DNA of 27,267 nucleotides. Origin: a virus. The stretch covers positions 1 to 27,267 of IMG/VR virus record IMGVR_UViG_3300035703_002616; one strand, written 5' to 3'. The stretch's first letter is position 1. Each line of letters opens with the position of its first letter. This document shows positions 1 through 18,415 of this stretch, one piece after another. The notes below the pieces were generated by a model. That model was not told the origin of the DNA. It made no database searches and worked only from the letters and a program-made list of their open reading frames with translations. Made by a program: the position numbers and the translations under genes.

Positions 1-4
1 ACGG

Positions 5-97
5 TTCGTTATACACCCTGGGATATGTTTCGTTATTTTAATACGTTATAAAAAATATAAACTTAATTCGTCTTCTGAGTAATTCTTATACCCTGGG
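5..97 (+). repeat. degenerate direct repeat with CCCTGGG core
   Basis: The stretch at 5-22 reads TTCGTTATACACCCTGGG and the stretch at 83-97 reads TTCTTATACCCTGGG. They are the same sequence apart from one and two missing bases. CCCTGGG is an odd-length palindrome and stands out as a GC block in AT-rich DNA. A weaker relative, TCCTGGGTAT, lies inside the HNH gene at 541-550. Role unknown. Confidence 0.5.
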
Positions 98-157
98 GGT
101 GTTTTATATAATTATACGTCGTATTATTATATTCGTTTATATACAGTGTTCGTTATA
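5..157 (+). repeat. dispersed TTCGTTAT direct repeats
   Basis: TTCGTTATA occurs at 5-13 and 149-157, TTCGTTAT at 29-36, and the shorter ACGTTATA at 43-50. The first two copies begin exactly 24 bp apart. Four related octamers in about 150 bp, each containing the less common CG dinucleotide, is more than expected even in AT-rich DNA. The function is unknown; protein-binding sites are one possibility. Confidence 0.5.
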
Positions 158-195
158 AAGAATAAAACAGTGCTGTTTTATTCTAATAGACAGTG
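143..195 (+). repeat. three ACAGTG copies spaced 23-24 bp
   Basis: ACAGTG begins at 143, 167 and 190, giving spacings of 24 and 23 bp, about two helical turns. The middle copy forms the centre of the palindrome at 160-183. The regular spacing would put the sites on nearly the same face of the helix, as in operator or iteron arrays. This is a pattern only, with no known binding protein. Confidence 0.4.
160..183. promoter_or_regulatory. 24-bp near-perfect palindrome, possible operator or hairpin
   Basis: Two 11-bp arms, GAATAAAACAG and CTGTTTTATTC, are exact reverse complements and are separated only by TG. As RNA it would form a roughly 10-bp AT-rich stem. No T-run follows on either strand, so it is not a standard intrinsic terminator. 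It lies 47 bp upstream of the HNH reading frame and could be an operator, a processing site or a transcript-end structure. Confidence 0.5.
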
Positions 196-229
196 ATTTT
201 ATGTTGTTTGTTATTGTTATTATAAACCG

Positions 230-1129
230 ATGCCCCCTTATATAAAAACAAAGGGTCCTTCAAGGCTACACCGAACCGAAAACGAGAGAGTAATTGTCTT
301 TCAAATAAAAAAATTTTTCCAAAAAATTTTTCCAAAAAAGTTAAAACATAAAATTATGAATTACCCAGAAGGAACTATTAAGACAAACACCCAAGGAAAC
401 AAATACATCAGAAAAGATGGAAAATGGGTATATATGAAAAAACCAAAAGAAGAAAGGAAAATATCAAAGGAAAATCCCAAAAGAGTTGTTTATAATTATC
501 CCCCCATAAGATTGTCTGAAAATATGAGAGAAACTCAATATCCTGGGTATTATATCACTGAAGACGGGAGAGCATATCGCAAACCTGGAAAATATGATAG
601 GAATGGAAAATACGGAGAAATTAATGAAAATGGGTTAATATATCTAAAACCTGCGTTCAGGGGACACCCAAAATATCCAGAACATCAATATGAATGCATA
701 AACATCTCAATGTATGATGAAACTGGAAAGTATAAACAAATTAAAAAATCAATTCATCAATTAGTTGCGGAAGCATTTATTCCTAATCCTGAAAGACATA
801 GTGAGATATTACACATAGATGGAAATAATAGGAATAATCATTATACAAATTTAAAATGGGGAACACATAAAGAAAACATGGAGATGGTTGGTTTACCAGA
901 AGGGAGTATTAGAAAAGCAAAAGGAAAGTATAGTGATTATATCAAAAAAGATGGTGAGTGGATTTTAATTCCAAAAAATACTCCTCCATGGAATAAGGGA
1001 TTGAAAGGAGTATCATGGAATACATTACCTGATGGAACTGTTACAACAAAAAAAGTAAATGGAAAACCTAGAACTTACATAAAACAAAATGGTAAATGGG
1101 TTTATCAAAGAAAAAAAAATGATATATAA
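230..1129 (+). CDS. HNH homing-type endonuclease with three repeated basic modules
   Basis: Probable site-specific DNA endonuclease of the HNH_3 type common in phage homing genes. The HNH region spans about residues 175-217, with IHQLVAEAF, then HIDGNNRNN and LKWGTHKEN; the candidate metal-site residues are H176, H195, D197, N203 and H204. A NUMOD4-like segment (YYITEDGRAYRKP, 107-119) precedes it. A small module PEG[TS]I...YI+.[DN]G+W occurs three times, at about 45-68, 221-247 and 266-294, and TPPWNKGLKG (251-260) resembles NUMOD3; both are probably DNA-binding parts. The start is uncertain: neither ATG 230 nor ATG 356 has a Shine-Dalgarno sequence. ATG 356 starts right at the first module, but the frame is open back to 197, so the longer form is kept. 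No evidence of an intron is visible; it looks free-standing. The endonuclease call is firm, its target unknown. Confidence 0.85.
   Translation: MPPYIKTKGPSRLHRTENERVIVFQIKKFFQKIFPKKLKHKIMNYPEGTIKTNTQGNKYIRKDGKWVYMKKPKEERKISKENPKRVVYNYPPIRLSENMRETQYPGYYITEDGRAYRKPGKYDRNGKYGEINENGLIYLKPAFRGHPKYPEHQYECINISMYDETGKYKQIKKSIHQLVAEAFIPNPERHSEILHIDGNNRNNHYTNLKWGTHKENMEMVGLPEGSIRKAKGKYSDYIKKDGEWILIPKNTPPWNKGLKGVSWNTLPDGTVTTKKVNGKPRTYIKQNGKWVYQRKKNDI
307..339 (+). repeat. 13-bp tandem repeat A6T5CC
   Basis: The unit AAAAAATTTTTCC occurs at 308-320 and 321-333, followed by a third A-run at 334-339. If translated it gives KKFFQKIFPKK in the HNH protein's N-terminal extension. It is typical of replication slippage. 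If the HNH protein actually starts at 356, this is leader DNA with spaced A-tracts. Confidence 0.6.
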
Positions 1130-1151: not shown

Positions 1152-1304
1152 ATGAAATTAGAGTTTGATGATTACGAAAAAGACTTGTTATTAGAAACAA
1201 TTCAGTATAGACTAGATACTGATAAAGTATTAGTAATTAATGATAATTTAAGAGAGGAGATTGAAGACCTTTTAAGAAAGGTCGAAGAAGATGAATACTT
1301 ATAA
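1152..1304 (+). CDS. small acidic protein, 50 residues, unknown
   Basis: ATG 1152 opens a 50-residue frame ending in TAA at 1302-1304. The product is rich in Glu, Asp and Leu (starting MKLEFDDYEKDLLLETIQYR) and looks mostly helical, with an amphipathic C-terminal half DNLREEIEDLLRKVEEDE. No signal peptide or membrane segment is visible. A weak GAAAG lies upstream. Its end overlaps the start of the next small gene by 14 bases, as in translationally coupled phage genes. Small acidic open frames like this are common in cyanophage accessory regions; the function is unknown. Confidence 0.65.
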   Translation: MKLEFDDYEKDLLLETIQYRLDTDKVLVINDNLREEIEDLLRKVEEDEYL

Positions 1305-1507: not shown

Positions 1508-2257
1508 ATGGCAAAAGGATTTACGGTAAAGACAAAACTTCCTTCACAACCTACTGAAGGAGAGTTCAATTTAGAAGCAACAAAAGAATTAATTAGAGGA
1601 AAGACGATTGTATTTTGTCTTCCAGGACGAGGAGTATCATATACATTTTTAAAGAACTTTGTTCAATTGTGTTTTGATCTTGTTCAGAATGGTGCTGGAA
1701 TTCAAATTTCACAAGACTATTCTTCAATGGTAAACTTTGCACGTTGTAAAGTTCTTGGAGCAAATGTTCTCAGAGGTCCAAAGCAAGTGCCTTGGGATGG
1801 TAAACTAAATTATGATTATCAACTTTGGATTGATTCTGATATTGTTTTTAACACTGAATCATTTTATCGTTTGCTTGCAATGGATAAAGACATTGCAGCA
1901 GGTTGGTATTGCACAGAAGATGGTATGACCACCTCTGTTGCTCACTGGTTGCAAGAGGATGATTTCCGCAACAATGGTGGTGTAATGAATCACGAAACAC
2001 TAGAAACCATTCAGAAACGTCGCAAACCATTCACAGTTGATTACACAGGTTTCGGATGGGTTCTCATTAAGAAAGGAGTCTTCGAAAGTCTCGAATATCC
2101 TTGGTTTGCTCCGAAGATGCAAGTGTTTGAATCTGGTGAGGTTCAGGATATGTGCGGAGAAGACGTTTCATTCTGTCTTGATGCAAAAGAAGCAGGATTT
2201 GAGATTTGGTGCGATCCTCAGATTCGAGTTGGTCACGAGAAGACTCGGATTATCTGA
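1508..2257 (+). CDS. glycosyltransferase-like protein, GT-A fold
   Basis: 249 residues. Probable cytoplasmic sugar transferase of the GT-A type, using a nucleotide-sugar donor; acceptor unknown. Visible signatures are an N-terminal strand TIVFCLPGRG (33-42), a DxD metal motif in WIDSDIVF (107-114), a TGFGWVLIKKGVFE segment (180-193) in the acceptor region, and C-terminal CGEDVSFC (216-223) followed by a conserved-type His in VGHEK (H243). This arrangement matches family 2-like glycosyltransferases. No signal peptide or membrane helix is seen. ATG 1508 is preceded by a T-run and no clear Shine-Dalgarno. It is the last gene before the strong terminator and so ends the accessory block. In phages such enzymes may modify the virion, DNA or host surface; which applies here cannot be told. 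A more distant GT-A relative with another role is the alternative. Confidence 0.8.
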   Translation: MAKGFTVKTKLPSQPTEGEFNLEATKELIRGKTIVFCLPGRGVSYTFLKNFVQLCFDLVQNGAGIQISQDYSSMVNFARCKVLGANVLRGPKQVPWDGKLNYDYQLWIDSDIVFNTESFYRLLAMDKDIAAGWYCTEDGMTTSVAHWLQEDDFRNNGGVMNHETLETIQKRRKPFTVDYTGFGWVLIKKGVFESLEYPWFAPKMQVFESGEVQDMCGEDVSFCLDAKEAGFEIWCDPQIRVGHEKTRII

Positions 2258-3904: not shown

Positions 3905-3919
3905 AACTTTCATTTTTTG

Positions 3920-4321
3920 ATGGCAAATATTACATCAAGGGCATTTTCAGACATTAGTTTATCTTTTTCTAAAAATCCTATTACAAATGATTTGATTGCA
4001 CTCAAAAATGAAGATGCTATTAAAAAATCAGTAATCAATTTAGTAAAAACTCAAATTGGTGAAAGATTTTATAACAATTTATTAGGAAGCAGTATTACCA
4101 CCTCATTGTTTGAATTAAATTCTAGAGGTGATCTTATATTTTTAGAAGAACAAATCAAAAACTTATTAAATAATTATGAACCAAGAATTGTAGTTCAGAA
4201 TGTTTTTCTTGACATTCCTGATGATAGTAATGAATTATATTTACAAATTCAATATGTAATAGTTGGTTTACCAGTACCAACACAAACAATAGATGTCATT
4301 TTACAATCAACTAGGGCATAA
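3920..4321 (+). CDS. 25: baseplate wedge protein gp25
   Basis: Structural protein of the tail baseplate inner ring; in T4 it binds gp6/gp7/gp53 and starts assembly of the contractile sheath. The 133 residues match T4 gp25 (132). The GPW_gp25 fold is visible, with the EPR motif (NNYEPRIVVQNV, residues 84-95) shared with TssE of type VI secretion, and an N-terminal helix with IKKSVINLVKTQIGERFYNN (34-53), the usual 'GER' region. ATG 3920 is chosen; the TTG at 3917 adds one residue only and is less likely. Its stop overlaps the gp6 start as TAATG. Driven by the late promoter at 3897-3904. Confidence 0.95.
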   Translation: MANITSRAFSDISLSFSKNPITNDLIALKNEDAIKKSVINLVKTQIGERFYNNLLGSSITTSLFELNSRGDLIFLEEQIKNLLNNYEPRIVVQNVFLDIPDDSNELYLQIQYVIVGLPVPTQTIDVILQSTRA

Positions 4322-6189
4322 TGTCTTCTTTTAATCAATTCACCAACTTAGATTTTTATAATCTAAGAACTCAAATAAAAGATTATTTGAGGACAAATAG
4401 TAATTTTAGTGACTTCGATTTTGAGGGGTCAAACTTTAGTGTTCTAATTGATATTCTTGCTTATAATTCTTATATAACCTCATTCAATACCAATATGGCA
4501 GTGAATGAGGTTTTTCTTGATAGTGCAACACTTCGTGAAAATGTCGTATCATTAGCAAAAAATATTGGATATCTACCTCGTTCAAAAAGGGCAGCAAGAG
4601 CAAAAGTTTCCTTTAGTGTATATTCTCCTAATGGGCCTAAAACAATTACCCTAAAGGCAGGAATCGTTGCCTTAGGTGCAGTTGAGGGAGGTAATTATAT
4701 TTTCTCAGTTCCCGAAGATATTATAGTGAATGTCGATAATAATGGGTATGCATATTTTGATCAAATTGAAATTTATGAGGGTTCTTTATTATTAAAAACT
4801 TTTACTTTCAATTCAAACGATTTAAATCAAAAATTTATTATTCCAAATGAAGGTGTAGATACTTCAACTATTAGAGTTGATGTTGAATCTTCTATTAGAG
4901 AAAAATATACTCAATATTCTTCGATATTTGATTTAACAAAAGATTCAAAAATTTTCTTATTACAAGAAACTACTGATGAAAGATATGAAATATTATTTGG
5001 AGATAATGTTTTAGGAAAAAAACCAATTAATGGAAGTGGAATTTCCATTAGTTATATTGTTACTAATGGAAAAAATGCAAATGGTTCTAGAAATTTTACA
5101 TTTTCTGGTATTTTAGAGGATAATAATGGTTTTAAGATTACAAGTGGAATATCATTATTAACTACTGTTCAATCTGCAGAAAATGGAGATGATATTGAAT
5201 CAATAGATTCCATTAAGGTTCTTTCACCAAAGGTATATTCATCCCAGTATAGAGCAGTTACAGCAGCAGATTATCAAGGATTGGTTCCTTATCTTTTTAC
5301 AAATATTGAATCAGTAACTGCTTATGGTGGAGAGGAAATAGATCCACCAGAATATGGAAAAGTATTTTTGATTATTAAACCAAGAAATAGTTCGTTTTTA
5401 TCACAATCAGCAAAAGAAGATATTAAAAATAAATTAAAAAATTATACTATTGCTGGGACTACAGTTGAAATATTAAATCTAAAATACTTGTATGTAGAAT
5501 TAGACGTAACTTGTTACTATAATAAAGAGTCTGCTCCAAGTCAACAAGAATTAATTTCAAAAGTTACAAGTACAATTACGGAGTATTCCAAATCTAAAGA
5601 TTTAAACACATTTGGAGGAAGATTTAAGTATAGTAAATTAGGATCAATTATTGACAATACTCAGCAATCAATCACATCTAATATCACAAAAGTAACAATT
5701 CGAAGAAATTTAAATCCATCATTTGGATTACTTGCAAATTATGAATTATGTTTTGGGAATCAATTTCATATAGGAAAAACAAACTATAATATAAAATCAT
5801 CAGGATTTACAATTTTAAATAATTCGGATACTTTATATTTGTCAGATGTGCCTAATTCAGATAACAAAACCGGAAGAATATTTTTCTTTAAACTTGAAAA
5901 TAATTCTCCAGTTATTGTTGTTCAAAATGCAGGTAAAGTTGACTATGAAAAAGGTGAAATTCTCCTCAGTCCTGTTGTTTTTACTTCCTCTATACAATCT
6001 GACGGGATACACATTCAGGCATACCCAGAGTCAAATGATGTCATTGCTTACAAAGATATATACTTAGAGCTTAGTATTCCATATACAAAAGTAAGTGTAG
6101 TTGAAGATACTTTAACTTCTGGTGAAAATACTTCAGGTACTTTATATAAGACAACATCAAGTTATTCAAACGGAAACTTCATAAGATAA
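4321..6189 (+). CDS. 6: baseplate wedge protein gp6, J-like
   Basis: Core of the baseplate wedge. In T4 two gp6 copies and one gp7 form each wedge, and gp6 forms the continuous inner ring. Length 622 residues against 660 in T4. The N-terminal part is clearly gp6: DFDFEGSNFSVLIDILAYNS (31-50), VNEVFLDSATLRENV (61-75) and IGYLPRSKRAARAKV (82-96) align by eye with T4 gp6 (DYDFEGSRLNVLCDLLAYN, LRSSVV, GYLPTSKSAA). A baseplate_J-like segment YSSQYRAVTAADYQGLVP lies at about 306-323. Start ATG 4321 overlaps the gp25 stop by one base; AGGG four bases upstream is a weak ribosome binding site. The gene is immediately followed by the giant gene after one base. Confidence 0.95.
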   Translation: MSSFNQFTNLDFYNLRTQIKDYLRTNSNFSDFDFEGSNFSVLIDILAYNSYITSFNTNMAVNEVFLDSATLRENVVSLAKNIGYLPRSKRAARAKVSFSVYSPNGPKTITLKAGIVALGAVEGGNYIFSVPEDIIVNVDNNGYAYFDQIEIYEGSLLLKTFTFNSNDLNQKFIIPNEGVDTSTIRVDVESSIREKYTQYSSIFDLTKDSKIFLLQETTDERYEILFGDNVLGKKPINGSGISISYIVTNGKNANGSRNFTFSGILEDNNGFKITSGISLLTTVQSAENGDDIESIDSIKVLSPKVYSSQYRAVTAADYQGLVPYLFTNIESVTAYGGEEIDPPEYGKVFLIIKPRNSSFLSQSAKEDIKNKLKNYTIAGTTVEILNLKYLYVELDVTCYYNKESAPSQQELISKVTSTITEYSKSKDLNTFGGRFKYSKLGSIIDNTQQSITSNITKVTIRRNLNPSFGLLANYELCFGNQFHIGKTNYNIKSSGFTILNNSDTLYLSDVPNSDNKTGRIFFFKLENNSPVIVVQNAGKVDYEKGEILLSPVVFTSSIQSDGIHIQAYPESNDVIAYKDIYLELSIPYTKVSVVEDTLTSGENTSGTLYKTTSSYSNGNFIR

Positions 6190-6190
6190 G

Positions 6191-9100
6191 ATGGCAGAAA
6201 TTAAAAGAGTAAAAATTCAAAATATTATCGAAACTCAAATTCCAGAGTTTTTGAATTATGATAATCCACTTTTCAAAGAATTTTTAAGTCAATATTATCT
6301 TTCATTAGAATACCCAACTGGAATAATTGATATTGCAGAAAATATTGATAGTTATAAAACAATTGAAAAAGTATTTGATCAAGAAGATTTTTATAATAAA
6401 AATAATCCTTGTATTTTATCTTCTGAATTAGATAGCATTTCTTCAGTCATAAATGTAAATCATACTGTAGGATTTTCAGATAAGTATGGTCTATTAAAAA
6501 TTGATAATGAAATTATCACTTATACTGGAATTACAACAAACTCTTTTACTGGTTGCATAAGAGGTTTTAGTGGACTTTCTGAAAATGATAATAAAGAATT
6601 AGTATTTTCATCAACAGAATCAACAACTCACCAAAAAGATTCTACTGTAATTAATATTAATTTACAATTTTCATCTAAGTTATTTGAAAAATTTAAATAT
6701 CATTTTCTTCCAGGATTTGAGGGTAGAGATTTTGTTCAAGATTTGGACATTGATTCTATTTTAGTTGCTGCAAGAGAGTTTTATAAAGCAAAAGGAACTG
6801 ATTTATCATTTTCTATTCTTTTTAATATTCTTTTCGGAAAAGAAGCTTCAGTTATAAATCCATCTGATTACATTGCAGTTCCCTCATCAAATTCATATTT
6901 AAATACAAAAAATATTCTTGTTGAAAAAATTTCAACTGGTAATGTATTAGATTTAAGAGGGAAAACAATATATCAAAATATTGATGGAAAATTATCAAGT
7001 GCATCAATTTACAATATAGAATACAGACTCATTGATGGAAAAGAATTTTATGAATTTCATTTGGATCCAGAAACAATAATAGGTGAATTTAAAACAACCA
7101 AAAAAACTATAATAACAGAAAAAGTTTTCTCTGGAATTGGTTCAACTTCAATTGATGTTGATTCTACTATTGGTTTTGAAAACGAATCAACAATTGTAGT
7201 TAAATCAAATTTAATTGAAACTCCATTATATTTAAATTATAAAAGTAAAACATTAAATCAGTTTTTACAAGTTGATTCTCCATTATATGATTTAAATCCA
7301 GGAGATTTAGTTATAGAAGATAATTTTGCATATGTAACCAGTGAAGAATCAGTTATACAATTTAGAATATGCAATACTATCTCTGATGTTGATGTCAATA
7401 ATACAATTGGACTTAGAGAAGGTGACAAAATTAAGGTTCTTAGTCTTGGAGATTCTATAGATAATAGACCAGAATTTTTAAACTGGAATTATAATGTTTC
7501 TGGAATTGGATTTTCGGTAGGAAAAGCACAAAGTTTTAATATTTTAGATTTAAATAATATAAATTATGGAGTGAGTAATACCTATATCGATCAATCTGAG
7601 GAAAATTTATATGTTTCTTCTTCTGGATTTCCAGAATATAAATTTACTGGTAATAATAGATTAAATATTTTTACTAGAACATCCCCCGAAACTATAACAA
7701 CCAATCAACCTCACAATTTTGAATCAGGTGAAATGGTTTATGTTGGAGTTTCTACTATTTCTGGTATAAAAAATGGATATTATTTTGTATCAAAAGTAGA
7801 TAATAATAGTATAAAGTTATCATTTAGTAATTTTGATAATTTTAATGATAACTTTATACAATTTAATGATGGATCATATACTATATCTGTAGTTAAATCT
7901 GGTTATGAAGATAAAAATTCTTCTAATTATGTAAAAAAAGTAAAAGAACAAAATTTATTTAAAAAAATACCACTCAAAAGATATTCAGAATCTATATCAA
8001 AAATTGATTCGGATACATTATCAGGTCCCATAGGTATTTTAAACAATGGAGTTCAACTTTATTCTCCAAAAGTTTTAAATCAATCAATTTATTATGGAAG
8101 GATTGAGAATATATCCATTGTAAGTAATGGCAATAATTATGACGTAATAAATCCACCAAAAATTAAAATTTCTTCTACATCTGGAAATGGAGCTGTATCC
8201 CACGTTAATGTTAGTGGTTCAATAGATGAAATAAAAGTAGTATCTCCTGGTATTGGATTTTTAGAAAAACCTAAAATCACTGTAACTGGTGGTAACGGCT
8301 CTAATGCAATTTTAGATTCAAATTTTGTAAAAGAAAGAGTAATTTCTGAATTTAATGCATTTTCTGGAGTAGATACTAATTTAGATTCCATTACTTTTTT
8401 AAATAATCACAATTTTATTACAGGTGATGAATTAATCTATAATAACAATTCAAATGTAAGTGTAAGTCCACTACAAAATAATTCAAAATATTTTGCAGGA
8501 GTTGTCTCTCCGACAACTATAAAATTATATAGTAACCAACTAGATTCTTATTCTGGAATTAACACCGTATCAATTAGTGGAATAGGAACAGGATATCATA
8601 ATTTTAAGACAGTAGAATTTAAAAATACAATTAATAAGATCTATGTAATTAATGGTGGAGATAATTATTCAAATAAGTTTATTAATATTTTAACTCCAGA
8701 AAATGATACTTATTATGATAAGTTTGGATTTACTGGAATTAATACGTCTGATAGTGTATTAATTTGCAAAAATCATACATTTAAAGATGGTGATTTGATT
8801 TACTATTCTTTTAGTGGAACTTCAATTGGAGGAATATCAACAACAAATCAATATTATGTAAAAAATATTGATTCCAATTCATTTAAACTTTCGGATGCTG
8901 GTTCTATAACTTCTACTCCAGATAAAAGCAATTTTAATTCACAAAAATATATAACTTTGACTAGTGTTGGAGTTGGAACTCATAAATTTTCATACCCACC
9001 AATAAAAATTTCTTTTGAATCAAACATTGGATTTACTTCAACTTCAATTTCATATCCAGAACTTTTACCAATTGTTTTGGGGTCAATTGAGAGTATTCAA

Positions 9101-12100
9101 TTGGAAAATCCAGGGGTTGGATATGGGTCACCTGATATAATTAACTTTAATAATCCACCAGTTGTTGAAATTGAAAAAGAATCATCCCAAGCAGTATTAC
9201 GACCAATAGTAAATAATGGATCTATCACTGAAGTCCAAATTTTAAATTCTGGTTCTGGATATTTAAATGACACTTACATTGAAATTATTGGTTCGGGAAA
9301 ATATGCAGAAGTTATACCAAATATTATAAATGGAAAAATTGATTCTGTTAAAATCATAAATCGTGGAATTGGATATGATAATAAAATTACTTTCATTATA
9401 AAAAGAAGAGGTTCTGATGCAAAATTCTTTTCCAATTTAACTGAATGGAGAATAAACCAAGTTAATAAATTGAATTCTGTTATTAATACTGACGATAATA
9501 AAGGATTATTACTTCCCAGTCAAAATGAAGATTTTGGTTTGGAGTATGCAGCATTTTTCCCTAAAGTAAGTGTCCAAGAAACCCCAATATCACATTCCCC
9601 AATTCTTGGTTGGGCATATGACGGAAATCCAATTTATGGACCTTATGGATACGAAAATTTAGATGGTTCTGGAAATATTATAAAATTGAAATCAGGATAT
9701 AAAATAAAAGATATACTCTCAAATTCTCTCCGACCAGATAAATCAAATGGATTTTTTATTGATGACTATGAATATTCAATAGATTCCGATTCCGATTTAG
9801 ATGAGTACAATGGAAGATTTTGTGTAACACCAGAATATCCAAATGGAATTTATGCTTATTTTTGCAATTTAGATGAAAATGATAATAATTCTTTCCCATA
9901 TGTTATTGGAAATTATTTTAAGAACAATAGAATAAAAGAAAATTATTTGAAATCATTTAATCAAAAAGATTTAGATATATCTAGTCTTAATTTAATAAGA
10001 AATACAAATCCATACTTTAAAAAAGATTCATCTTACAGTTATTTGCAAGATATCGATTCAAAATATAATCAAGAATATATTATCAAAAAAATCCTTCCAT
10101 CATCAATTGATTCTGTTTTAATTTATGAACCTGGTGAAAATTATCAAGTAAATGATAGAATCATTACAAATAATACTGGAACAGAAGGAAAAGGATTTGA
10201 TTCTTTTGTTTCTAGGATTTCTGGTAAACCTCTAGAATCATTTTCTGTTGGAATTAATACTATAAATTCTATATCTTTTTATAATATAGGACAAACATTT
10301 GTTGGAATTAGCACGATTCCACACGGATTACTTTCTTCAGAAATAATTGAAATTGAAGATTTATCTTCTACTGAATTTAATTTTATTAAAGGTAAAAAAT
10401 TAATTTCTGTATCTCAAAGAGAAACAAATGTGGTTGAAGATATTCAACCACAGTCAACAACTGGTGAAATAACAAATATAAAAGTAAATGATATTTCTGG
10501 ATTTGATATTGATGATTATATAAAAATTAATAATGAAACTGTTCAAATTATTGGCATAAATCAAACCCTTAATGAATTAATTATTAGAAGAAATCAATCG
10601 TTTTTGGGAATACATACATCACCAACTGTAGCATCTCTTCTACCGAAAAAATTTACTTTTATTGAAGAATCAATTCCAAATATAACAAGTATTTTCAATA
10701 ATCAAAAAGTATATTTTAATGCAACAAATTCTATCGGAATTGGAACAACAGGAACATATAATTATAAAAATGTTGGAATCAAAACAGTTTATGGTGGACT
10801 TGTTTCTTCAAATCAATCTGTTGTTGCCATTAACACTTCATTATTGTCTGTTGGTGATTATATCTCTGGAACTCATATTAGTGCAGGAACAGCAGTAACT
10901 AGCATAGGCATTGGGTCCATCGGAATAAATCCTGCACACACTTATAGTGGAGTTGGAATTGCTACAGTATTAATTGATGTTCAAAGAAGTGTTTATGATT
11001 ATTTTATTCCAGAAAAATCAATTTATTTGCCAAAACACAATTTCTATACAGGACAAGAACTATTATACAAAAAAGGTTCCACTGGAATTGGAATAAGTGT
11101 TTCCAATAATCCAAATGATGTTGCATTTGAATTGAATAATCAAATAGTTTATGCAGTAAATTATGGAGAAAACTTTTTAGGAATTTCTACTATTGGATTT
11201 ACTAGTACATCAGGCATAGGAACAAATTACAATTCATTGTATTTTAAAACACCTCCCAATAATATTGGCAAAGATCATTCATTAACTACAAATTATCCAA
11301 TAATAACTGCTAACGCAAATAGTTATACTTCAACAATTCAAACAAAAGAAAATCATGGACTTTTAACAAATGATTTAATAAGATTTGAATATACTCCATC
11401 ATTTATTGAAGAAATAATCCTTAGATATGATTCATACAACAAAAAGATAACTTCTGGTCTTTTTAATTTTTCACCATTAACAGTAAATACAAGTAATAAT
11501 AAAATTACTATTGGAAACAACTCATTTAATACTGGAGATAAAATTGTTTATTATACAAATGGTGGAAATGTAATTGGTGGTTTATCTGATAAAAAAACTT
11601 ATTTTATAATAAAAGAGAGTAAAGATTCTATTAGACTATCTAATTATAAATCAGATGCATTAGTTGGTATTGGGATATCAGTAACTTCTACTGGAACTGG
11701 AACTCATTCATTTGCTAAGATAAATCCTCAAATAAAAGTTACTAAAGGAAATATTATTAAATTTACTTTAGAAAATATTTCTAATATGAAATTAGTTTTA
11801 TATAAAGATTCAGAATTTTTATATAAAATTAATGAAATTAATTATATTCTTCCTAATGGATCTTATCAATTACAAACAAACAATAAAGATATACCAAAAG
11901 AATTTTATTATAATTTGATTCCATTAAATGGATCTGAAATAAGTCAAGATAAGGAAGTATATAATGCAAATAAAATTGTATCACAAGTAAATGTTTATAC
12001 TATAAAAGATTATTCTGTAATAAAAATTACTGATAAATCTTTTAAAATTAATTTACCACAAACACCAGAAATATTATCAATTTCAAATTTAAACGAGATA

Positions 12101-15100
12101 ATATATTCTACAAATTCAAAGTCTGCTTATGGACCTATTTTTGACCTGACTGTTACATTTGGTGGAAAAGGTTATAAAAAATTACCAAAAATAACAAGAG
12201 TAGAAAGCATTCTTGGAAGTAATTCTATATTAAAACCATCATCAAATAATATTGGAAAAATTGAATTATTAGAACTTACAAAAAATAGTTTTGATTATCC
12301 AACAGATAATACATTACTTCCAAAATTAAGTGTTCCTGCAATTTGCGAAATATCAAAGATTTCTAGAATTGGATCTATTGATATTATTAATTTTGGAAGA
12401 AATTATAATGCAAAACCAACTCTTAAAGTTGTTGGTAGAGATGATATTATGTTATCTGCTAATATTCAAGGTGGTTCTGTTGTTTCTGTTGATGTGATAC
12501 AAAATGCAAATGATTTATTTGTTCCATTAGATATTATTTCTACTAGAAATTCTAATGGTTATGATATTGATGAAATTGTTGTTGGTAGTGGAGGCACTAG
12601 CGTAACTTTAGAACTTATTAATTCCGATATTCAAAGATATCCGTTAATAAATTCTGGGTATGGTTCAACAATAACCAATTTTCCATTTAGTGTAGGTGAT
12701 GAAATCTTTATAGAGAGATGTAATATAGAAGAGACAAATAAATCCAACTTTAATTCTGTTGATTATAATTATAAGTTTTTTACAGTAATTGGTATTAATA
12801 CAGGAAATTCTACTGTTACCTATTCTACTGATAACGTTTCCAATAATTTCGGAACATATCAAAATGATTTTGGGTATGGATACGTTGTCAACAAAAAAGA
12901 TATGGCATCATTTAAAATGAACTTATCTGATGATTTGTCATATCTGTCAGGTGAAAAAGTATTATCTACTAATTTTAAAGCCACTGTAATGGAAAATGGA
13001 TGGGATAATGAATTAAATGAACTGCGATTAATTGATTGTGTTGGATCTTTAAAAGTCGGTGATAAACTTTATGGTGAGAAATCAAAATTAAACGGAGAAA
13101 TTAAAAATATAAATCAATTTTCACTAAGATCTTCTCTCGGTGTTTTGAGAAATAAAATTACTTACAAACAAATTAATAATAGTTTAACTAATGATTATTT
13201 GATTAGAATAGAAGATAATGATTATTATCAAAAATTTGCATACTCAATTAAGAGTGAAGTTCCATATGATGATTGGAAAGAACCAGTCAGATCATTAAAT
13301 CATCCATCAGGATTTAAAGAATTTTCAGATTACAATCTTGTAAGTAAACCAACTAATGGAAAATCAAAAACATTAAAAATTTCACCTATTGATTTAAAGG
13401 TTGATTTATCAGTTAATATTGATAATTATGAATCGTTATATTCAAAATCTAATGTTTGTTTGGTTACAGAGGATAATATATTTGAAGATGGTTCAATAGA
13501 AAATGTTTTAATTGGTTCTGAATCTGCAAATGTATCAGGTATTGGAATAACACAAGCAAAAGGTTTATTCTTATCTCCATATATTTTAAACAAAACGAAT
13601 AAGGTACTTTCTATAGATGACATTAGTGATCAATTTACAGGAATAGTTACAACTTCTGGTGGAAAAATAGTAGGTATTAGTTCATTTAAATTAAAAAATA
13701 ATGATACTCCAATTTTTTATAAAGAATTTGCTGCAAATAATTCCAATATTGTTAAGTTAGATTCAAATTCATTTTTCCTACAAAATCACAATTTCCAAAC
13801 TGGTCAAAAATTAAAATATACTTCACCAGTAGGAAATGAAATTGGAATTAAAACAACTAACTTAGTAGAAAGTTCAATCATTAACATTAATCAGAATGGT
13901 AATGTTTCTGTTTCTTCAACTGATTCTAGCATCATTATGCAAATTGGATCAGGTATAGGTAGTGCTGTTTATGAAAATGGTTATAATATAGGAATTACAA
14001 CTACAATTATTGGCATTTCATCTAATGCACCTTCCGGTGTAACTTATTCCATCTTTGGGTCTGTTGATCCGTTTATTCCATCAACTGCTATAACTGGGAT
14101 TGGAACTGGTGCAAGATTTACAGTTTTAATTACATACAATGGTTCTGGGTCCCCACTATCAACATCAATCGTATTAAGAGATGGTGGAAGTGGATATGCA
14201 GTCGGAGATACTGTTTCTATTGCTGGTACATACTTCTATGGAGCAACTCCAACAAATGACTTGAGTTTTGTTGTTTCTAAAGTTTCTAGCACAAAAGTTA
14301 TTTCAGCAGCAAATGCAACATTTTCAAATGTTTCTTCTACTTCTATTACTGGTATTGGTTCAAGTGCAATTTTCAATGTTAAAAGAGGTGCCGATGGTTC
14401 TATTACAAGCACGGAAATTGTTGATGGTGGAGTTGGATATGCACTTACGGATAAAATAAAAATAGTCGGTAATTTAATAGGTGGAGCAACACCACAAGAT
14501 GATTATGTATTTTCACCAACAATACTTGGAACTAACAAATTACCAAAAACAGTATATGTCAGTAAATTAAATGATGCACAATTTAAAGTAAGTGGAATTT
14601 CATCTTTAATCGCAGATTCTGAATTGGATATTGTAAATTTAGGAATTGGAACACACTCTTTTGAATATGTTGGATCAAATGAAAGTTCTTTAATATTAAT
14701 TGATAATATTATTCAGAGTCCGATTTACAGAAGAAATATTTACACAACTCTAGCAAATAGTGTTTCTATTGGATCAACAGTAATATATGTTTCATCTGGA
14801 ATTAATTCAATTACAAAAATTGATAAATTAAAAATTAATGATGAAATTTTAAATATTATTAGTGTTGGTATAGGATCTACCAATTCAATTGAAGTGGAAA
14901 GAGCATTTTTTGGTTCAGAAGAAAAAAATCACAATATAGGAGATACAGTTAGTGTCATTAGAGGTGACTATAATATTCAAAAAGATGTAATTTATTTCTC
15001 AACTCCTCCCTACGGTCCAACAGGTCCAGAAGGATTTAAAATAAATTCTACTTTCCAAGGAAGGGTATTTTCTAGATCATTTGATGATTTAACTCAACCA

Positions 15101-18100
15101 AATGATAAAAATATTATCTTAGATGACATTTCGGTTGATTTTACTGGAATTGCTGCAACTAACTTTATTTTAAAGTCAAATAATTCTACCGTTGTTGGAA
15201 TTTTTACCAATACTAACGGAAGTGGAACCGATATAAACAATAATCCATTTATTTTAATTAACAATATTTCTCAAGTATCCAGAGATGATTTTATCATTGA
15301 TACTCCTAACCAAAATACCATTAAGTTCATAGGTGGAGCACCAAGTGCTGGAAAAATTATTAAACTTGGATTATCCTCAAGTTTTGGATATCAACCATTA
15401 ATAGGTGCTGCTGCAACAGTTAGTGTTTCTGCTGCTGGAACTATTAGTAATGTATATTTGAATGGTTATGGTTCTGGTTATAGAACAGCACCAATAGTCA
15501 GTATTTCTTCCACAGTTGGATCTGGTGCTATTATAACCTCATCAATTGGTGCTGGTGGAACAATTACAGGATTATCTATAACTAATGCTGGATCTGGGTA
15601 TACAACTGCTGGAATTACAGAAGTAATGATACCAATTCCATCAAATTATAGTGATATACCTCTATCTTATGCGAGTGGCAATACTGGTTTGGGGACAAAC
15701 GCAAAAGTATCTGTTCAGGTAGGAAGTGGATCTAGTATTATACAATTTAATATTGAAGAACCAGGAATTGGATACAAAGTTGGAGATGTTTTAGTAGCAC
15801 CCGGAATAACAACAAATCCAAATTCACCAAGTTTTACTGAATTAAAATTTACAGTAGAAGAGGTGTTTACTGATAAATTCAGTGGTTTTTATCCAGGACA
15901 ATTTATTCAATTTGAAGATATATCAAAGTTCTTTAATGGTAAAAAAAGAAAATTTACTTTATATTACAAAGTAAATAACGTTCCTGAAATTATAACATTA
16001 AAATCCCAAGATGGGACAGATTTTGATTTAAATAAAAATATGTTTGTTTTTGTAAATGATATTTTACAAGAACCAATAAAGTCATATGTATTTACTGGAA
16101 ACAGAATAATTTTCAAAGAAGCACCAAAACAAAACTCAAAATGTAATATTCTTTTTTACAGGGGTTCTTCTCTTGATGTTTCAGAAGTTGATCCACCAAA
16201 AACTATAAAGTCCGGTGATGAAATACAAATTTTAGAAAATGCTTTTGTTTCTGATGATATTAGTCAGTTTGAAAGAGTAGTGAAAAAAATAAATTCTACC
16301 GATGATTTTGATACTTTTACTTATGATAGTTTGGGTATAAATCCAGATCCAACTGCAGCAAGACCTTTAAAGTGGACAAAACAAACAAAAGACAGAATTA
16401 TTAATGGTGTTTTATATTCTAAAGAAAGACCAAGTTTGAAGTCAAACATTTACCCATCAACAAATGTTATAAAACCTGTCTCTAAGACTGATAGTGAAAT
16501 ATATGTAGAAAATGCTTTCCCTCTTTTTTCTGGGGTAGACTTATTGACTGAGGATTCTAGAGATGTTTCAATTGTTGAAAATAGATCAATATCACCAGGA
16601 ATACTTACAGCAGTGGTTTCAGCATCATCTACTATAAGTTCAATTTCAATTATTGATTCTGGAAATGGTTATTTGACTAATATTTCCCCAAATGTCTTAG
16701 TATCCTCCTCCGCATTACAAATAAGAGATCCATTTAAAAATTTTAATACATCAGTTGGAGTATCTTCAATTGTTAATTTTAAATCTATAATTATTAACAA
16801 TAATAATCATTATATTGCAGTTGGTTCTACAAATTTTGTTGGGTTATCTACAAATGGAACTCAATGGTCTAGTTATGAAATAATTTCTGGACAAAATATT
16901 ACATATAATTCAATTGCATTTACAGAAAATAATAGATATGTTTCTGTTGGTTCCAGTGGAAAAATATATTCTTCTGTTGGTATAGGCACTACATTCAATT
17001 CTTGGGAAGAAGTTAAGAAGTTTAAACTTTCTGGTTCAATTGGAGTTGGAAATGAAACTTATAATGAATTTAATGAGTATTCGGAAGAGTTTAAATCCGT
17101 ATCATATTCAGAAAATCTTGATTTATGGGTTGTTGTTGGATCATCTAAAACTACTTTTTATGGGGTTGGAGCAGGCACAACAACATTCTTTGAAAGAACT
17201 TTTAGTTCACAGAATTTAAATAGTGTTGCAAATAACAATACAGTATTTTCTGTAGTCGGAGTGAATGGATATATTGGAGTTTCTACCGATGCATATGATT
17301 GGAGTCAAGTGAATCAAGGATTAACAAACAATTCTTTAAATTTTGTAGTTTGGGATTCTGATAGATTTATTGCCTGTGGAAATAATTCCACTATTATTAC
17401 TTCACAGAATGGAAATTCTTGGTCACTTATTAATGAAGTTTCCCCATCTTCCATTGATTTTGTAAAGATTAAACCACACAGTGAAGGTTTATATGTTGCC
17501 TTGGATATTAATAATGACTTATATTATTCATTCAATTTAAAAGAATGGCATTTGAAAAAAACTGGAAACTTTAATGATATTATTTTCAATAATAGTATTG
17601 GTGATTATGGAAGAACAGTGATTGTTGGTTCTGCTGGAACTTCTTTATATTCTGATCCAGTTTATAACAGAGCATCTGGTATAGGTAGTGTAACTTCTGG
17701 AATTATTACTTCAATTCAAATTACAAATGAAGGATTTGGATATTTTGAAAGTAATTTACCTTCGATTATTGTTGAATCGGATACATCAAAAACAGAAACT
17801 ATTTACTCTGTAAAAGTTAAAGGTGATTATGGAACAATAATTGGAATTAATACTTTCCCACAAGGAACTCCAGGAATTGGAACAACTTCTCCAAAAGTTG
17901 AATTTGTCTTAAAATCTAATTATTATGATAATTTAAATTTGGGAATTGGTTATTCATCAATTAATACTTTTGCAGATGAAAATAATAATCCAATTACATA
18001 TAGTCAGTTATCTTCTGGTGATTACTTTGTTATATCAAATAGTTCTGCAAAGGTAAAAACTGGTTATAATTTAGTTGGAATAACTACTTTAAATGGATTT

Positions 18101-18415
18101 GATGAAATAGTTGGTATAGCAACATCATTTATTGATGGTGTTTATCGTGTAGAATTAGTTTCACCACCATCTAGTGGAATTGTCACTGTAACTTGTCATT
18201 TCCAACCAGTTCAACTCTCTCCTGGTGCTGGTGAGGCTCCAATTGAAGTTGGGCTAGTGACTTCTAAGTATTATGGAAATTACTCCTGGAGTAAAATCTA
18301 TGATTATCAGAATAGACAAAGATTATCTCCATTTTCTTTTGCAGTTAATACCTTAAATGGAATAACTGGAATTGAGAGTGGCCCTCAACTTTATAGAACT
18401 AAATCATTAAAATAG
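6191..18415 (+). CDS. giant 4074-residue baseplate protein at the gp7 position, with YHYH and propeller-like regions
   Basis: Probable virion structural protein, inferred to take the gp7 place in the wedge from its position between gp6 and gp8; T4 gp7 is only 1032 residues, and sequence similarity to it is not evident by eye. The N-terminus (FLSQYYLSLEYP, then YHFLPGF and YKAKGTDLSFSILFNILFG, about 170-225) and the C-terminus (GNYSWSKIYDYQNRQRLSPF) are of the kind found in large cyanophage structural proteins. In order: a YHYH-family domain at 1130-1230 (HSPILGWAYDGNPIYGPYG, H1135); a tandem pair of about 70 residues at 2634-2777; GPTGPEG near 2941; a seven-fold propeller-like repeat at 3535-3823. 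About fifteen Gly-rich GxGY modules and seven or more 'HNF.tGd.i.Y' modules fill the rest, so it is probably an extended beta-rich fibrous protein. No signal peptide or membrane segment. Its frame is uninterrupted over 12.2 kb. ATG 6191 follows the gp6 stop by one base, so translation is probably coupled. Confidence 0.9.
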   Translation: MAEIKRVKIQNIIETQIPEFLNYDNPLFKEFLSQYYLSLEYPTGIIDIAENIDSYKTIEKVFDQEDFYNKNNPCILSSELDSISSVINVNHTVGFSDKYGLLKIDNEIITYTGITTNSFTGCIRGFSGLSENDNKELVFSSTESTTHQKDSTVININLQFSSKLFEKFKYHFLPGFEGRDFVQDLDIDSILVAAREFYKAKGTDLSFSILFNILFGKEASVINPSDYIAVPSSNSYLNTKNILVEKISTGNVLDLRGKTIYQNIDGKLSSASIYNIEYRLIDGKEFYEFHLDPETIIGEFKTTKKTIITEKVFSGIGSTSIDVDSTIGFENESTIVVKSNLIETPLYLNYKSKTLNQFLQVDSPLYDLNPGDLVIEDNFAYVTSEESVIQFRICNTISDVDVNNTIGLREGDKIKVLSLGDSIDNRPEFLNWNYNVSGIGFSVGKAQSFNILDLNNINYGVSNTYIDQSEENLYVSSSGFPEYKFTGNNRLNIFTRTSPETITTNQPHNFESGEMVYVGVSTISGIKNGYYFVSKVDNNSIKLSFSNFDNFNDNFIQFNDGSYTISVVKSGYEDKNSSNYVKKVKEQNLFKKIPLKRYSESISKIDSDTLSGPIGILNNGVQLYSPKVLNQSIYYGRIENISIVSNGNNYDVINPPKIKISSTSGNGAVSHVNVSGSIDEIKVVSPGIGFLEKPKITVTGGNGSNAILDSNFVKERVISEFNAFSGVDTNLDSITFLNNHNFITGDELIYNNNSNVSVSPLQNNSKYFAGVVSPTTIKLYSNQLDSYSGINTVSISGIGTGYHNFKTVEFKNTINKIYVINGGDNYSNKFINILTPENDTYYDKFGFTGINTSDSVLICKNHTFKDGDLIYYSFSGTSIGGISTTNQYYVKNIDSNSFKLSDAGSITSTPDKSNFNSQKYITLTSVGVGTHKFSYPPIKISFESNIGFTSTSISYPELLPIVLGSIESIQLENPGVGYGSPDIINFNNPPVVEIEKESSQAVLRPIVNNGSITEVQILNSGSGYLNDTYIEIIGSGKYAEVIPNIINGKIDSVKIINRGIGYDNKITFIIKRRGSDAKFFSNLTEWRINQVNKLNSVINTDDNKGLLLPSQNEDFGLEYAAFFPKVSVQETPISHSPILGWAYDGNPIYGPYGYENLDGSGNIIKLKSGYKIKDILSNSLRPDKSNGFFIDDYEYSIDSDSDLDEYNGRFCVTPEYPNGIYAYFCNLDENDNNSFPYVIGNYFKNNRIKENYLKSFNQKDLDISSLNLIRNTNPYFKKDSSYSYLQDIDSKYNQEYIIKKILPSSIDSVLIYEPGENYQVNDRIITNNTGTEGKGFDSFVSRISGKPLESFSVGINTINSISFYNIGQTFVGISTIPHGLLSSEIIEIEDLSSTEFNFIKGKKLISVSQRETNVVEDIQPQSTTGEITNIKVNDISGFDIDDYIKINNETVQIIGINQTLNELIIRRNQSFLGIHTSPTVASLLPKKFTFIEESIPNITSIFNNQKVYFNATNSIGIGTTGTYNYKNVGIKTVYGGLVSSNQSVVAINTSLLSVGDYISGTHISAGTAVTSIGIGSIGINPAHTYSGVGIATVLIDVQRSVYDYFIPEKSIYLPKHNFYTGQELLYKKGSTGIGISVSNNPNDVAFELNNQIVYAVNYGENFLGISTIGFTSTSGIGTNYNSLYFKTPPNNIGKDHSLTTNYPIITANANSYTSTIQTKENHGLLTNDLIRFEYTPSFIEEIILRYDSYNKKITSGLFNFSPLTVNTSNNKITIGNNSFNTGDKIVYYTNGGNVIGGLSDKKTYFIIKESKDSIRLSNYKSDALVGIGISVTSTGTGTHSFAKINPQIKVTKGNIIKFTLENISNMKLVLYKDSEFLYKINEINYILPNGSYQLQTNNKDIPKEFYYNLIPLNGSEISQDKEVYNANKIVSQVNVYTIKDYSVIKITDKSFKINLPQTPEILSISNLNEIIYSTNSKSAYGPIFDLTVTFGGKGYKKLPKITRVESILGSNSILKPSSNNIGKIELLELTKNSFDYPTDNTLLPKLSVPAICEISKISRIGSIDIINFGRNYNAKPTLKVVGRDDIMLSANIQGGSVVSVDVIQNANDLFVPLDIISTRNSNGYDIDEIVVGSGGTSVTLELINSDIQRYPLINSGYGSTITNFPFSVGDEIFIERCNIEETNKSNFNSVDYNYKFFTVIGINTGNSTVTYSTDNVSNNFGTYQNDFGYGYVVNKKDMASFKMNLSDDLSYLSGEKVLSTNFKATVMENGWDNELNELRLIDCVGSLKVGDKLYGEKSKLNGEIKNINQFSLRSSLGVLRNKITYKQINNSLTNDYLIRIEDNDYYQKFAYSIKSEVPYDDWKEPVRSLNHPSGFKEFSDYNLVSKPTNGKSKTLKISPIDLKVDLSVNIDNYESLYSKSNVCLVTEDNIFEDGSIENVLIGSESANVSGIGITQAKGLFLSPYILNKTNKVLSIDDISDQFTGIVTTSGGKIVGISSFKLKNNDTPIFYKEFAANNSNIVKLDSNSFFLQNHNFQTGQKLKYTSPVGNEIGIKTTNLVESSIININQNGNVSVSSTDSSIIMQIGSGIGSAVYENGYNIGITTTIIGISSNAPSGVTYSIFGSVDPFIPSTAITGIGTGARFTVLITYNGSGSPLSTSIVLRDGGSGYAVGDTVSIAGTYFYGATPTNDLSFVVSKVSSTKVISAANATFSNVSSTSITGIGSSAIFNVKRGADGSITSTEIVDGGVGYALTDKIKIVGNLIGGATPQDDYVFSPTILGTNKLPKTVYVSKLNDAQFKVSGISSLIADSELDIVNLGIGTHSFEYVGSNESSLILIDNIIQSPIYRRNIYTTLANSVSIGSTVIYVSSGINSITKIDKLKINDEILNIISVGIGSTNSIEVERAFFGSEEKNHNIGDTVSVIRGDYNIQKDVIYFSTPPYGPTGPEGFKINSTFQGRVFSRSFDDLTQPNDKNIILDDISVDFTGIAATNFILKSNNSTVVGIFTNTNGSGTDINNNPFILINNISQVSRDDFIIDTPNQNTIKFIGGAPSAGKIIKLGLSSSFGYQPLIGAAATVSVSAAGTISNVYLNGYGSGYRTAPIVSISSTVGSGAIITSSIGAGGTITGLSITNAGSGYTTAGITEVMIPIPSNYSDIPLSYASGNTGLGTNAKVSVQVGSGSSIIQFNIEEPGIGYKVGDVLVAPGITTNPNSPSFTELKFTVEEVFTDKFSGFYPGQFIQFEDISKFFNGKKRKFTLYYKVNNVPEIITLKSQDGTDFDLNKNMFVFVNDILQEPIKSYVFTGNRIIFKEAPKQNSKCNILFYRGSSLDVSEVDPPKTIKSGDEIQILENAFVSDDISQFERVVKKINSTDDFDTFTYDSLGINPDPTAARPLKWTKQTKDRIINGVLYSKERPSLKSNIYPSTNVIKPVSKTDSEIYVENAFPLFSGVDLLTEDSRDVSIVENRSISPGILTAVVSASSTISSISIIDSGNGYLTNISPNVLVSSSALQIRDPFKNFNTSVGVSSIVNFKSIIINNNNHYIAVGSTNFVGLSTNGTQWSSYEIISGQNITYNSIAFTENNRYVSVGSSGKIYSSVGIGTTFNSWEEVKKFKLSGSIGVGNETYNEFNEYSEEFKSVSYSENLDLWVVVGSSKTTFYGVGAGTTTFFERTFSSQNLNSVANNNTVFSVVGVNGYIGVSTDAYDWSQVNQGLTNNSLNFVVWDSDRFIACGNNSTIITSQNGNSWSLINEVSPSSIDFVKIKPHSEGLYVALDINNDLYYSFNLKEWHLKKTGNFNDIIFNNSIGDYGRTVIVGSAGTSLYSDPVYNRASGIGSVTSGIITSIQITNEGFGYFESNLPSIIVESDTSKTETIYSVKVKGDYGTIIGINTFPQGTPGIGTTSPKVEFVLKSNYYDNLNLGIGYSSINTFADENNNPITYSQLSSGDYFVISNSSAKVKTGYNLVGITTLNGFDEIVGIATSFIDGVYRVELVSPPSSGIVTVTCHFQPVQLSPGAGEAPIEVGLVTSKYYGNYSWSKIYDYQNRQRLSPFSFAVNTLNGITGIESGPQLYRTKSLK
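14090..14522 (+). repeat. tandem duplication of about 70 codons inside the giant gene
   Basis: Residues 2634-2777 contain two successive copies of one unit. Each begins ITGIG..A.F.V, continues with DGG.GYA..D...I.G, and closes with GGATP..D or GATPTND, followed by a strand. Copy one contains ITGIGTGARFTV and GATPTNDLSFVV; copy two contains ITGIGSSAIFNV and GGATPQDDYVF. The DNA copies have diverged, so the duplication is not recent. Confidence 0.7.

Follow-up and report, generated by a model that had tools for sequence, protein, structure and literature searches.

A conserved candidate control site, with an adjoining repeat array and HNH gene, ahead of the baseplate genes of T4-like cyanophages

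What is the role of a long, repeat-laden non-coding stretch that precedes an HNH endonuclease gene and, beyond it, the baseplate genes of a virus? The window analysed here is the entire 27,267-base virus record IMGVR_UViG_3300035703_002616; its base 1 is a contig end, so that the left border of the stretch is cut off. An earlier note on this DNA had described a gap of 229 bases, a length that does not hold: the HNH frame has an ATG at 230 and an in-frame ATG at 356, and the latter is probably the start, because HNH homology begins there and the alignments to relatives point to it. With base 1 a contig end and the gene starting at 356, the non-coding stretch is therefore at least 355 bp long and truncated on the left. 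The genes that follow are these:

356-1129, plus strand: HNH endonuclease gene (Pfam HNH_3, 257 aa from ATG 356), directly 3′ of the conserved core described below
1152-1304, plus strand: 50-aa ORF, which directly follows the core in HNH-minus relatives of the same clade
1508-2257, plus strand: glycosyltransferase-like gene (GT), used as a synteny marker
3917-4321, plus strand: gp25 baseplate wedge gene
4321-6189: gp6, after gp25
6191-18415: ORF of 4074 aa in the baseplate/fibre region
18446-20014: gp8

The baseplate proteins gp25, gp6 and gp8 are encoded downstream of the non-coding stretch, and the baseplate/fibre region holds, besides the 4074-aa ORF, a second giant ORF of at least 2415 aa (20021-27265) that is open at the contig end. 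Relatives of the GT gene occur in 105 phage records, mostly of Synechococcus and Prochlorococcus phages, and the source virus is, judged from its genes, a marine T4-like cyanophage. The stretch is best read as the left part of a control region that separates a hypervariable small-gene region from the gp25-gp6-gp7-gp8 baseplate genes.

The left part of the stretch carries an array of short repeats and palindromes:

5-12, plus strand: TTCGTTAT, first copy
16-22, plus strand: C-box CCCTGGG, first copy, of the same class as the C-box of the relatives' units
29-36, plus strand: TTCGTTAT, second copy
91-97, plus strand: C-box CCCTGGG, second copy, 75 bp past the first; the relatives' shorter unit spacing is 74-78 bp
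106-132, no strand: imperfect palindrome ATATAATTATACG/CGTATTATTATAT, 13-nt arms, 92% complementary
143-195, plus strand: three ACAGTG (143, 167, 190) with the third copy of TTCGTTAT (149-156)
159-184, no strand: perfect dyad AGAATAAAACAG/CTGTTTTATTCT, with modest covariation in 5 sequences

Most of this had been described in the earlier note. The pair of CCCTGGG copies, the three ACAGTG at spacings of 24 and 23 bp, and the palindrome, which is perfect with 12-bp arms around a 2-nt centre, were recovered as claimed. Four copies of TTCGTTAT had been counted, of which three are exact (5, 29, 149); the fourth site reads TACGTTAT at 42-49, with one mismatch. A 24-bp spacing common to two repeat types is true for one TTCGTTAT interval only (5 to 29), and the units of relatives are spaced by about 74-78 and 118-123 bp. 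The covariation of the dyad is modest, its score in 5 sequences being reached by 37 of 500 shuffles.

The repeats are real and exceed chance. Against 2000 dinucleotide-preserving shuffles of positions 1-229, repeated 8-mer pairs number 12 (shuffle mean 2.65; fraction of shuffles reaching the observed value 0.008) and repeated 7-mer pairs 25 (mean 8.27; 0.005), the longest palindrome arm is 12 (mean 5.98; 0.0005) and the commonest 8-mer occurs three times (mean 1.90; 0.041); the commonest 6-mer, at four copies, is not significant (mean 3.23; 0.26). These unbiased counts, that of the 6-mer excepted, exceed the shuffles. None of the 2000 shuffles reached the observed counts of the named words, which were picked after seeing the sequence. 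On this strand of the window, TTCGTTAT and CCCTGGG have no further copies and ACAGTG has three.

Array units in relatives, made up of a C-box, TTYGTTATTNTAAT and ACAGT, are spaced by about 75 and 120 bp and confined to this clade. Three units spaced by 118-123 and 74-76 bp are present in seven loci (L085, L089, L091, L109, L113, L009, L006), and two units 78 bp apart in L004. The unit model scores the window's own units weakly (best E 0.057), and the window's array is assigned to this family because of alignments, C-boxes and the 75-bp spacing. In eight close relatives the conserved block is followed by the 50-aa ORF with no HNH gene in between (L004, L005, L006, L007, L009, L014, L019, L026); at E < 0.01, at least one unit lies upstream of the core in seven of them and none in L026. 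The comparison with HNH-minus relatives that the earlier note had proposed therefore shows that the repeats are not missing from all close relatives and that the endonuclease did not bring them. That they are the endonuclease's own recognition zone, as had also been proposed, is not supported: relatives lacking the HNH gene retain them, and their distance upstream of its likely start is at least 160 bp. With units in these seven relatives and conserved spacings in several, a cluster of putative protein-binding sites within a control region is a fair description of 1-229, and an origin-like element there is possible; the array (1-195) would supply extra binding sites beside the core.

In T4-like phages, small genes are shuffled by promoter-early-stem-loop (PeSL) elements, in which stem-loops flank an early promoter. 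The array units could be taken for such mobile cassettes: they contain -10-like hexamers and hairpins, with no -35 element seen, and they sit at the edge of the small-gene hotspot between gp46 and gp25 that PMC3037559 names. PeSLs are, however, dense where genes shuffle, according to part of PMC4503421, and the units here differ in occupying a single site instead of being dispersed. A search for the unit pattern with up to three mismatches in contigs G001 (88 kb) and G002 (64 kb) returned no copy outside this site, and the core occurs once per genome. This identity was rejected on copy number and is very improbable.

The most conserved DNA of the locus lies just past the repeats, and the coordinates 1-229 of the earlier note stop short of it:

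228-332, plus strand: conserved core, with a C-run (233-237), TATATAAAA (239-247), a CTACA anchor (266-270) and an A-tract (307-318)
307-332, plus strand: A-tract/T-tract tandem at the 3′ end of the core (AAAAAATTTTTCC, a 13-bp repeat)

In composition, the core runs from the C-run through TATATAAAA and TAAnCTAYAA to the A-tract. A gapless alignment of 58 non-redundant sequences on the CTAYA anchor, whose own conservation is forced by that choice, places the C-run at -35 to -29, TATNTAAAA at -27 to -19, CCC and TAA immediately ahead of the anchor, G at +18, AAAT at +25 to +28 and the A-tract at +43 to +46. The TATATAAAA box thus keeps a fixed position, -27 to -19 relative to CTAYAA, and the conserved information amounts to about 57 bits (104 positions at 0.552). 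GC content, 0.45-0.55 on the upstream side, falls to about 0.25-0.35 between +20 and +160.

The core is an element of DNA rather than of RNA structure. No consensus pairs were found among 39 sequences, fold z-scores are near 0 within the core, and Rfam gave no match at gathering and two chance-level matches below it; a structured RNA was ruled out on these results. Hairpin tendency peaks further upstream, at -120 to -100 (mean z about -1, with 18-22% of loci below -2). The anchor mostly falls between genes: the median gap is 107 nt to the end of the nearest ORF upstream (n=153) and 99 nt to the start of the first ORF downstream (n=157), and an ORF of at least 45 aa spans it in 19 of 169 loci. 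Annotation of 13 isolates places no non-CDS feature over the core, which lies inside a gap in 11; in the other two it is overlapped by small hypothetical, probably spurious CDSs (P-HM2 41,558-41,644 and S-SCSM2R 54,785-55,003). Searches of open-licence PMC papers gave no description of the element.

How widespread is the core? An initial model of the block to the right of the array gathered 99 sequences at E <= 0.1, or 84 without duplicates and short ones; with the refined model, 109 of 149 sequences gave a match at E < 1e-3, always a single one and on the operon strand. Among 80 GT loci, 68 carry the core, and seven of the 12 misses have fewer than 300 nt ahead of the GT gene. A sequence-only model found, in each of 20 records (13 isolates and seven contigs), a single match at E <= 7.7e-6, any further ones having E of 0.005 or more, under stricter filters that may lose weak matches and with some of these records having contributed sequences to the model; Syn9, S-CAM9, P-HM2, DSL-LC02, Bellamy, S-SM2, S-8S55, S-T4, S-SRM01 and contigs G002, G010 and G011 were held out of it. 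The core occupies 25,139-25,214 in S-PM2 and 53,476-53,586 in Syn9. P-SSM4, S-RSM4 and Syn19 (E <= 6.1e-10) and P-HM1 (1.8e-4) have it as well. In all, one strong copy is present in 17 of 22 phage isolates and in all seven contigs; the search gave no match in S-CRM01 and KVP40, and chance-level matches in S-TIM5, HTVC008M and T4 (E 0.3, 0.1 and 0.7).

Two gene-blind exact motif searches of IMG/VR added at least 238 new loci among the matches listed; the motifs were derived from GT-found loci and some contigs recur, so that the sets are not independent. The downstream genes were first checked on 158 of these 238 and later on 174. GT, gp25 or gp6 lies downstream on the same strand in 171 of the 174 listed loci with at least 3 kb of downstream sequence (the exceptions are L381, L442 and L455), and in 81 of the 82 with 7 kb; in a short locus, L270, gp25 and gp6 are on the opposite strand. 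The core thus apparently occurs as one strong copy per genome, ahead of baseplate genes, in most of the related viruses checked.

Weak second matches (E 0.005 and up) mostly cover the A-rich 3′ half. Those at E 0.01-0.07 are found in S-PM2 (154,881 and 162,660), P-HM2 (94,786), S-SRM01 (12,777), P-HM1 (92,710) and S-RSM4 (192,713); in S-PM2, P-HM2 and S-SRM01 they lie inside or at the edge of intergenic gaps, and TTGACA-N17-TACAAT comes after one of the S-PM2 matches. They may represent a second, shared leader motif with an A-tract. P-SSM4 has two adjacent core-like matches at 51,732-51,926 (E 0.2 and 6.1e-10), which may be a decayed duplication.

The position of the HNH gene raises the question of whether the region is, above all, where a homing endonuclease recognises its target and inserts. 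Wherever an HNH-bearing sequence has a core (38 of 38), its HNH match begins -25 to +77 nt from the core end. HNH-minus L004 and L005 lack some 785 bp, and the sequences bordering the HNH stretch in the window (about 331 to 1115) come within about 15 nt of each other there. The site is intact in HNH-minus L004, L005 and L026, and the HNH gene is inserted there in the window; L008 was withdrawn as a further HNH-minus example, having a 35%-identical HNH. The HNH gene is read as a mobile gene that entered immediately 3′ of the core, presumably by homing, and the core's 3′ edge may be one putative homing site. The tandem 13-bp repeat AAAAAATTTTTCC (window 307-341) lies at the insertion edge and could mark the insertion.

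The core, however, is present in many HNH-minus loci (63 of 86 anchored sequences are classed HNH-minus) and in isolates without an adjacent HNH, and is therefore not kept by the HNH gene. Conversely, 28 of 66 HNH rows lack a core at the threshold used: L107 has a weak one (E 0.025), L122 begins inside the gene, L119, L121 and L123-L129 adjoin other coding sequence, which their HNH follows, and L131-L146 are short, distant matches. In P-HM2 the HNH is at 2.8 kb and the core at 41.6 kb. A homing zone as the main identity of the region is thus improbable. The HNH_3 gene resembles the free-standing HNH homing genes of phages in being inserted beside a conserved site, but here that site is kept without HNH and cutting is putative. 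In L123, L125 and L127-L129 the HNH comes after another gene, one whose product ends in MVECEFK, and this is apparently a further site that members of this HNH family share.

Could the core instead serve marine T4-like cyanophages as a replication origin? The AT-rich DNA would then be opened, and the first forks primed, by a transcript from the TATA-like box or by an initiator on core and array. One strong copy per genome, a long conserved footprint without RNA structure, AT-rich DNA immediately downstream and, in this clade, a repeat array upstream speak for it. Sections of PMC3016281 describe the minimal T4 origins oriF and oriG as about 100 bp with a promoter and an AT-rich unwinding element, and oriE as having iterons; a single theta origin has been predicted for Syn9 (in a passage of PMC2984593). 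Like oriF (ori uvsY), the core is short (about 100 bp), has gene 25 as a neighbour and combines AT-rich DNA with a promoter-like part; evenly spaced short repeats in the relatives' syntenic DNA recall the oriE iterons (PMC3016281, in part). The units here are, however, longer, degenerate and confined to one clade, with the core outside them.

Skew and duplex stability were tested for signs of an origin in six genomes. GC skew shows no step at the core, nor do the genomes share an extremum of it; the 5 kb upstream have low skew (mean +0.019), with the flanks on both sides alike. GC does fall to about 0.25-0.35, yet duplex instability is ordinary in most genomes, windows less stable than the downstream 100 bp making up 0.5 to 69% of the genome. 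Neither measure supports an origin. As a primer promoter, the TATATAAAA box is at fixed spacing, and no enriched sigma70 pair lies over the A-tract stretch. T4 itself has no core match (best E 0.7). A neighbourhood of uvsW and gp25 shared with oriF was also rejected: the helicase encoded upstream of the core in the six genomes (Syn9 49,158-50,396; 43-54% identity to that of Syn9) is distinct from UvsW, and T4 UvsW finds its best matches 53-79 kb away from the core, on its downstream side, in each of the six, with UvsY adjoining UvsW in S-SSM7. The oriF location, between gene 25 and uvsY, is therefore shared on the gp25 side only, and even there gp25 is downstream of the core in cyanophages and upstream of oriF in T4. 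A replication origin is possible and rather unlikely. The same doubtful standing attaches to the broader proposal of a dedicated origin, or some other DNA-transaction site present once per genome and served by an initiator of its own, common to marine T4-like cyanophages and unlike described T4 origins in sequence, in which the array would be accessory binding sites and homing endonucleases would exploit an ever-present site.

A packaging start (pac-like) or other terminase site would also fit one strong copy per genome, and S-PM2 is reported to show raised read density near its ORFanage, read as terminal redundancy in PMC4503421. The S-PM2 ORFanage, as delimited there, ends near 15.5 kb, however, and the core is at 25.1 kb, which leaves a packaging role quite improbable.

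The leading reading, tentative as it is, is that the core is a cis-acting, protein-bound transcription-control site that opens the gp25 baseplate operon; with the uvsW argument for an origin dropped, it leads because of the core's orientation, its position in a gap and its TATA-like box. It is favoured by the GT, gp25 or gp6 downstream of 171 of the 174 listed motif loci, by the operon-strand orientation of all 109 core matches, and by the anchor in an ORF gap, the drop in GC and the upstream hairpin peak. Strict terminator-like sites are found only upstream, on the plus strand (11 matches over four bins there, against none among 86 loci in any of the three bins downstream). Against the reading stand the scarcity of strict terminators within 250 nt upstream (5 of 74 loci), a number on which a generic terminator was rejected as the conserved part, the lack of a standard promoter, and the single strong copy per genome with its roughly 57 bits, far above a promoter's needs.

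Sigma70 -35/-10 pairs scoring at least 10 are not enriched over the A-tract stretch (+100 to +230; 0% versus 5% of shuffles). Their clearest excess is at +200 to +330 (32% versus 5%), and they reach 11% versus 2% at 0 to +130 and 12% versus 2% at -400 to -270. A sigma70 promoter directly after the core is unsupported as a general feature; good -10 boxes can be seen by eye in single genomes. T4-type late promoters (NATAAATA in S-PM2) likewise have an AT-rich box near structural genes, but the core consensus differs (TATNTAAAA in the 58 non-redundant sequences, rather than TATAAATA or NATAAATA), and the core is long and unique; the cyanophage late motif NATAAATA numbers 36-60 per genome in six genomes.

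As a transcription-control site, the core, whose orientation toward the baseplate operon is fixed, would be a binding site at the DNA level on which a phage- or host-encoded regulator and RNA polymerase would assemble, with the TATATAAAA box as the promoter-like part. The C-run and hairpin-rich DNA upstream may shield the operon from read-through, and the A-tract would form part of the leader that precedes the first gene.

T4-like cyanophages rank with the most abundant viruses of the sea, and most of those checked have in common this one-copy, position-fixed, unannotated candidate control site. One known coordinate in S-PM2, Syn9 or P-SSM2 offers a target for learning how the baseplate operon switches on or where replication starts. 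An ever-present core would explain the repeated landing of HNH genes at this locus, and it provides a gene-free marker for finding the locus in metagenomes.
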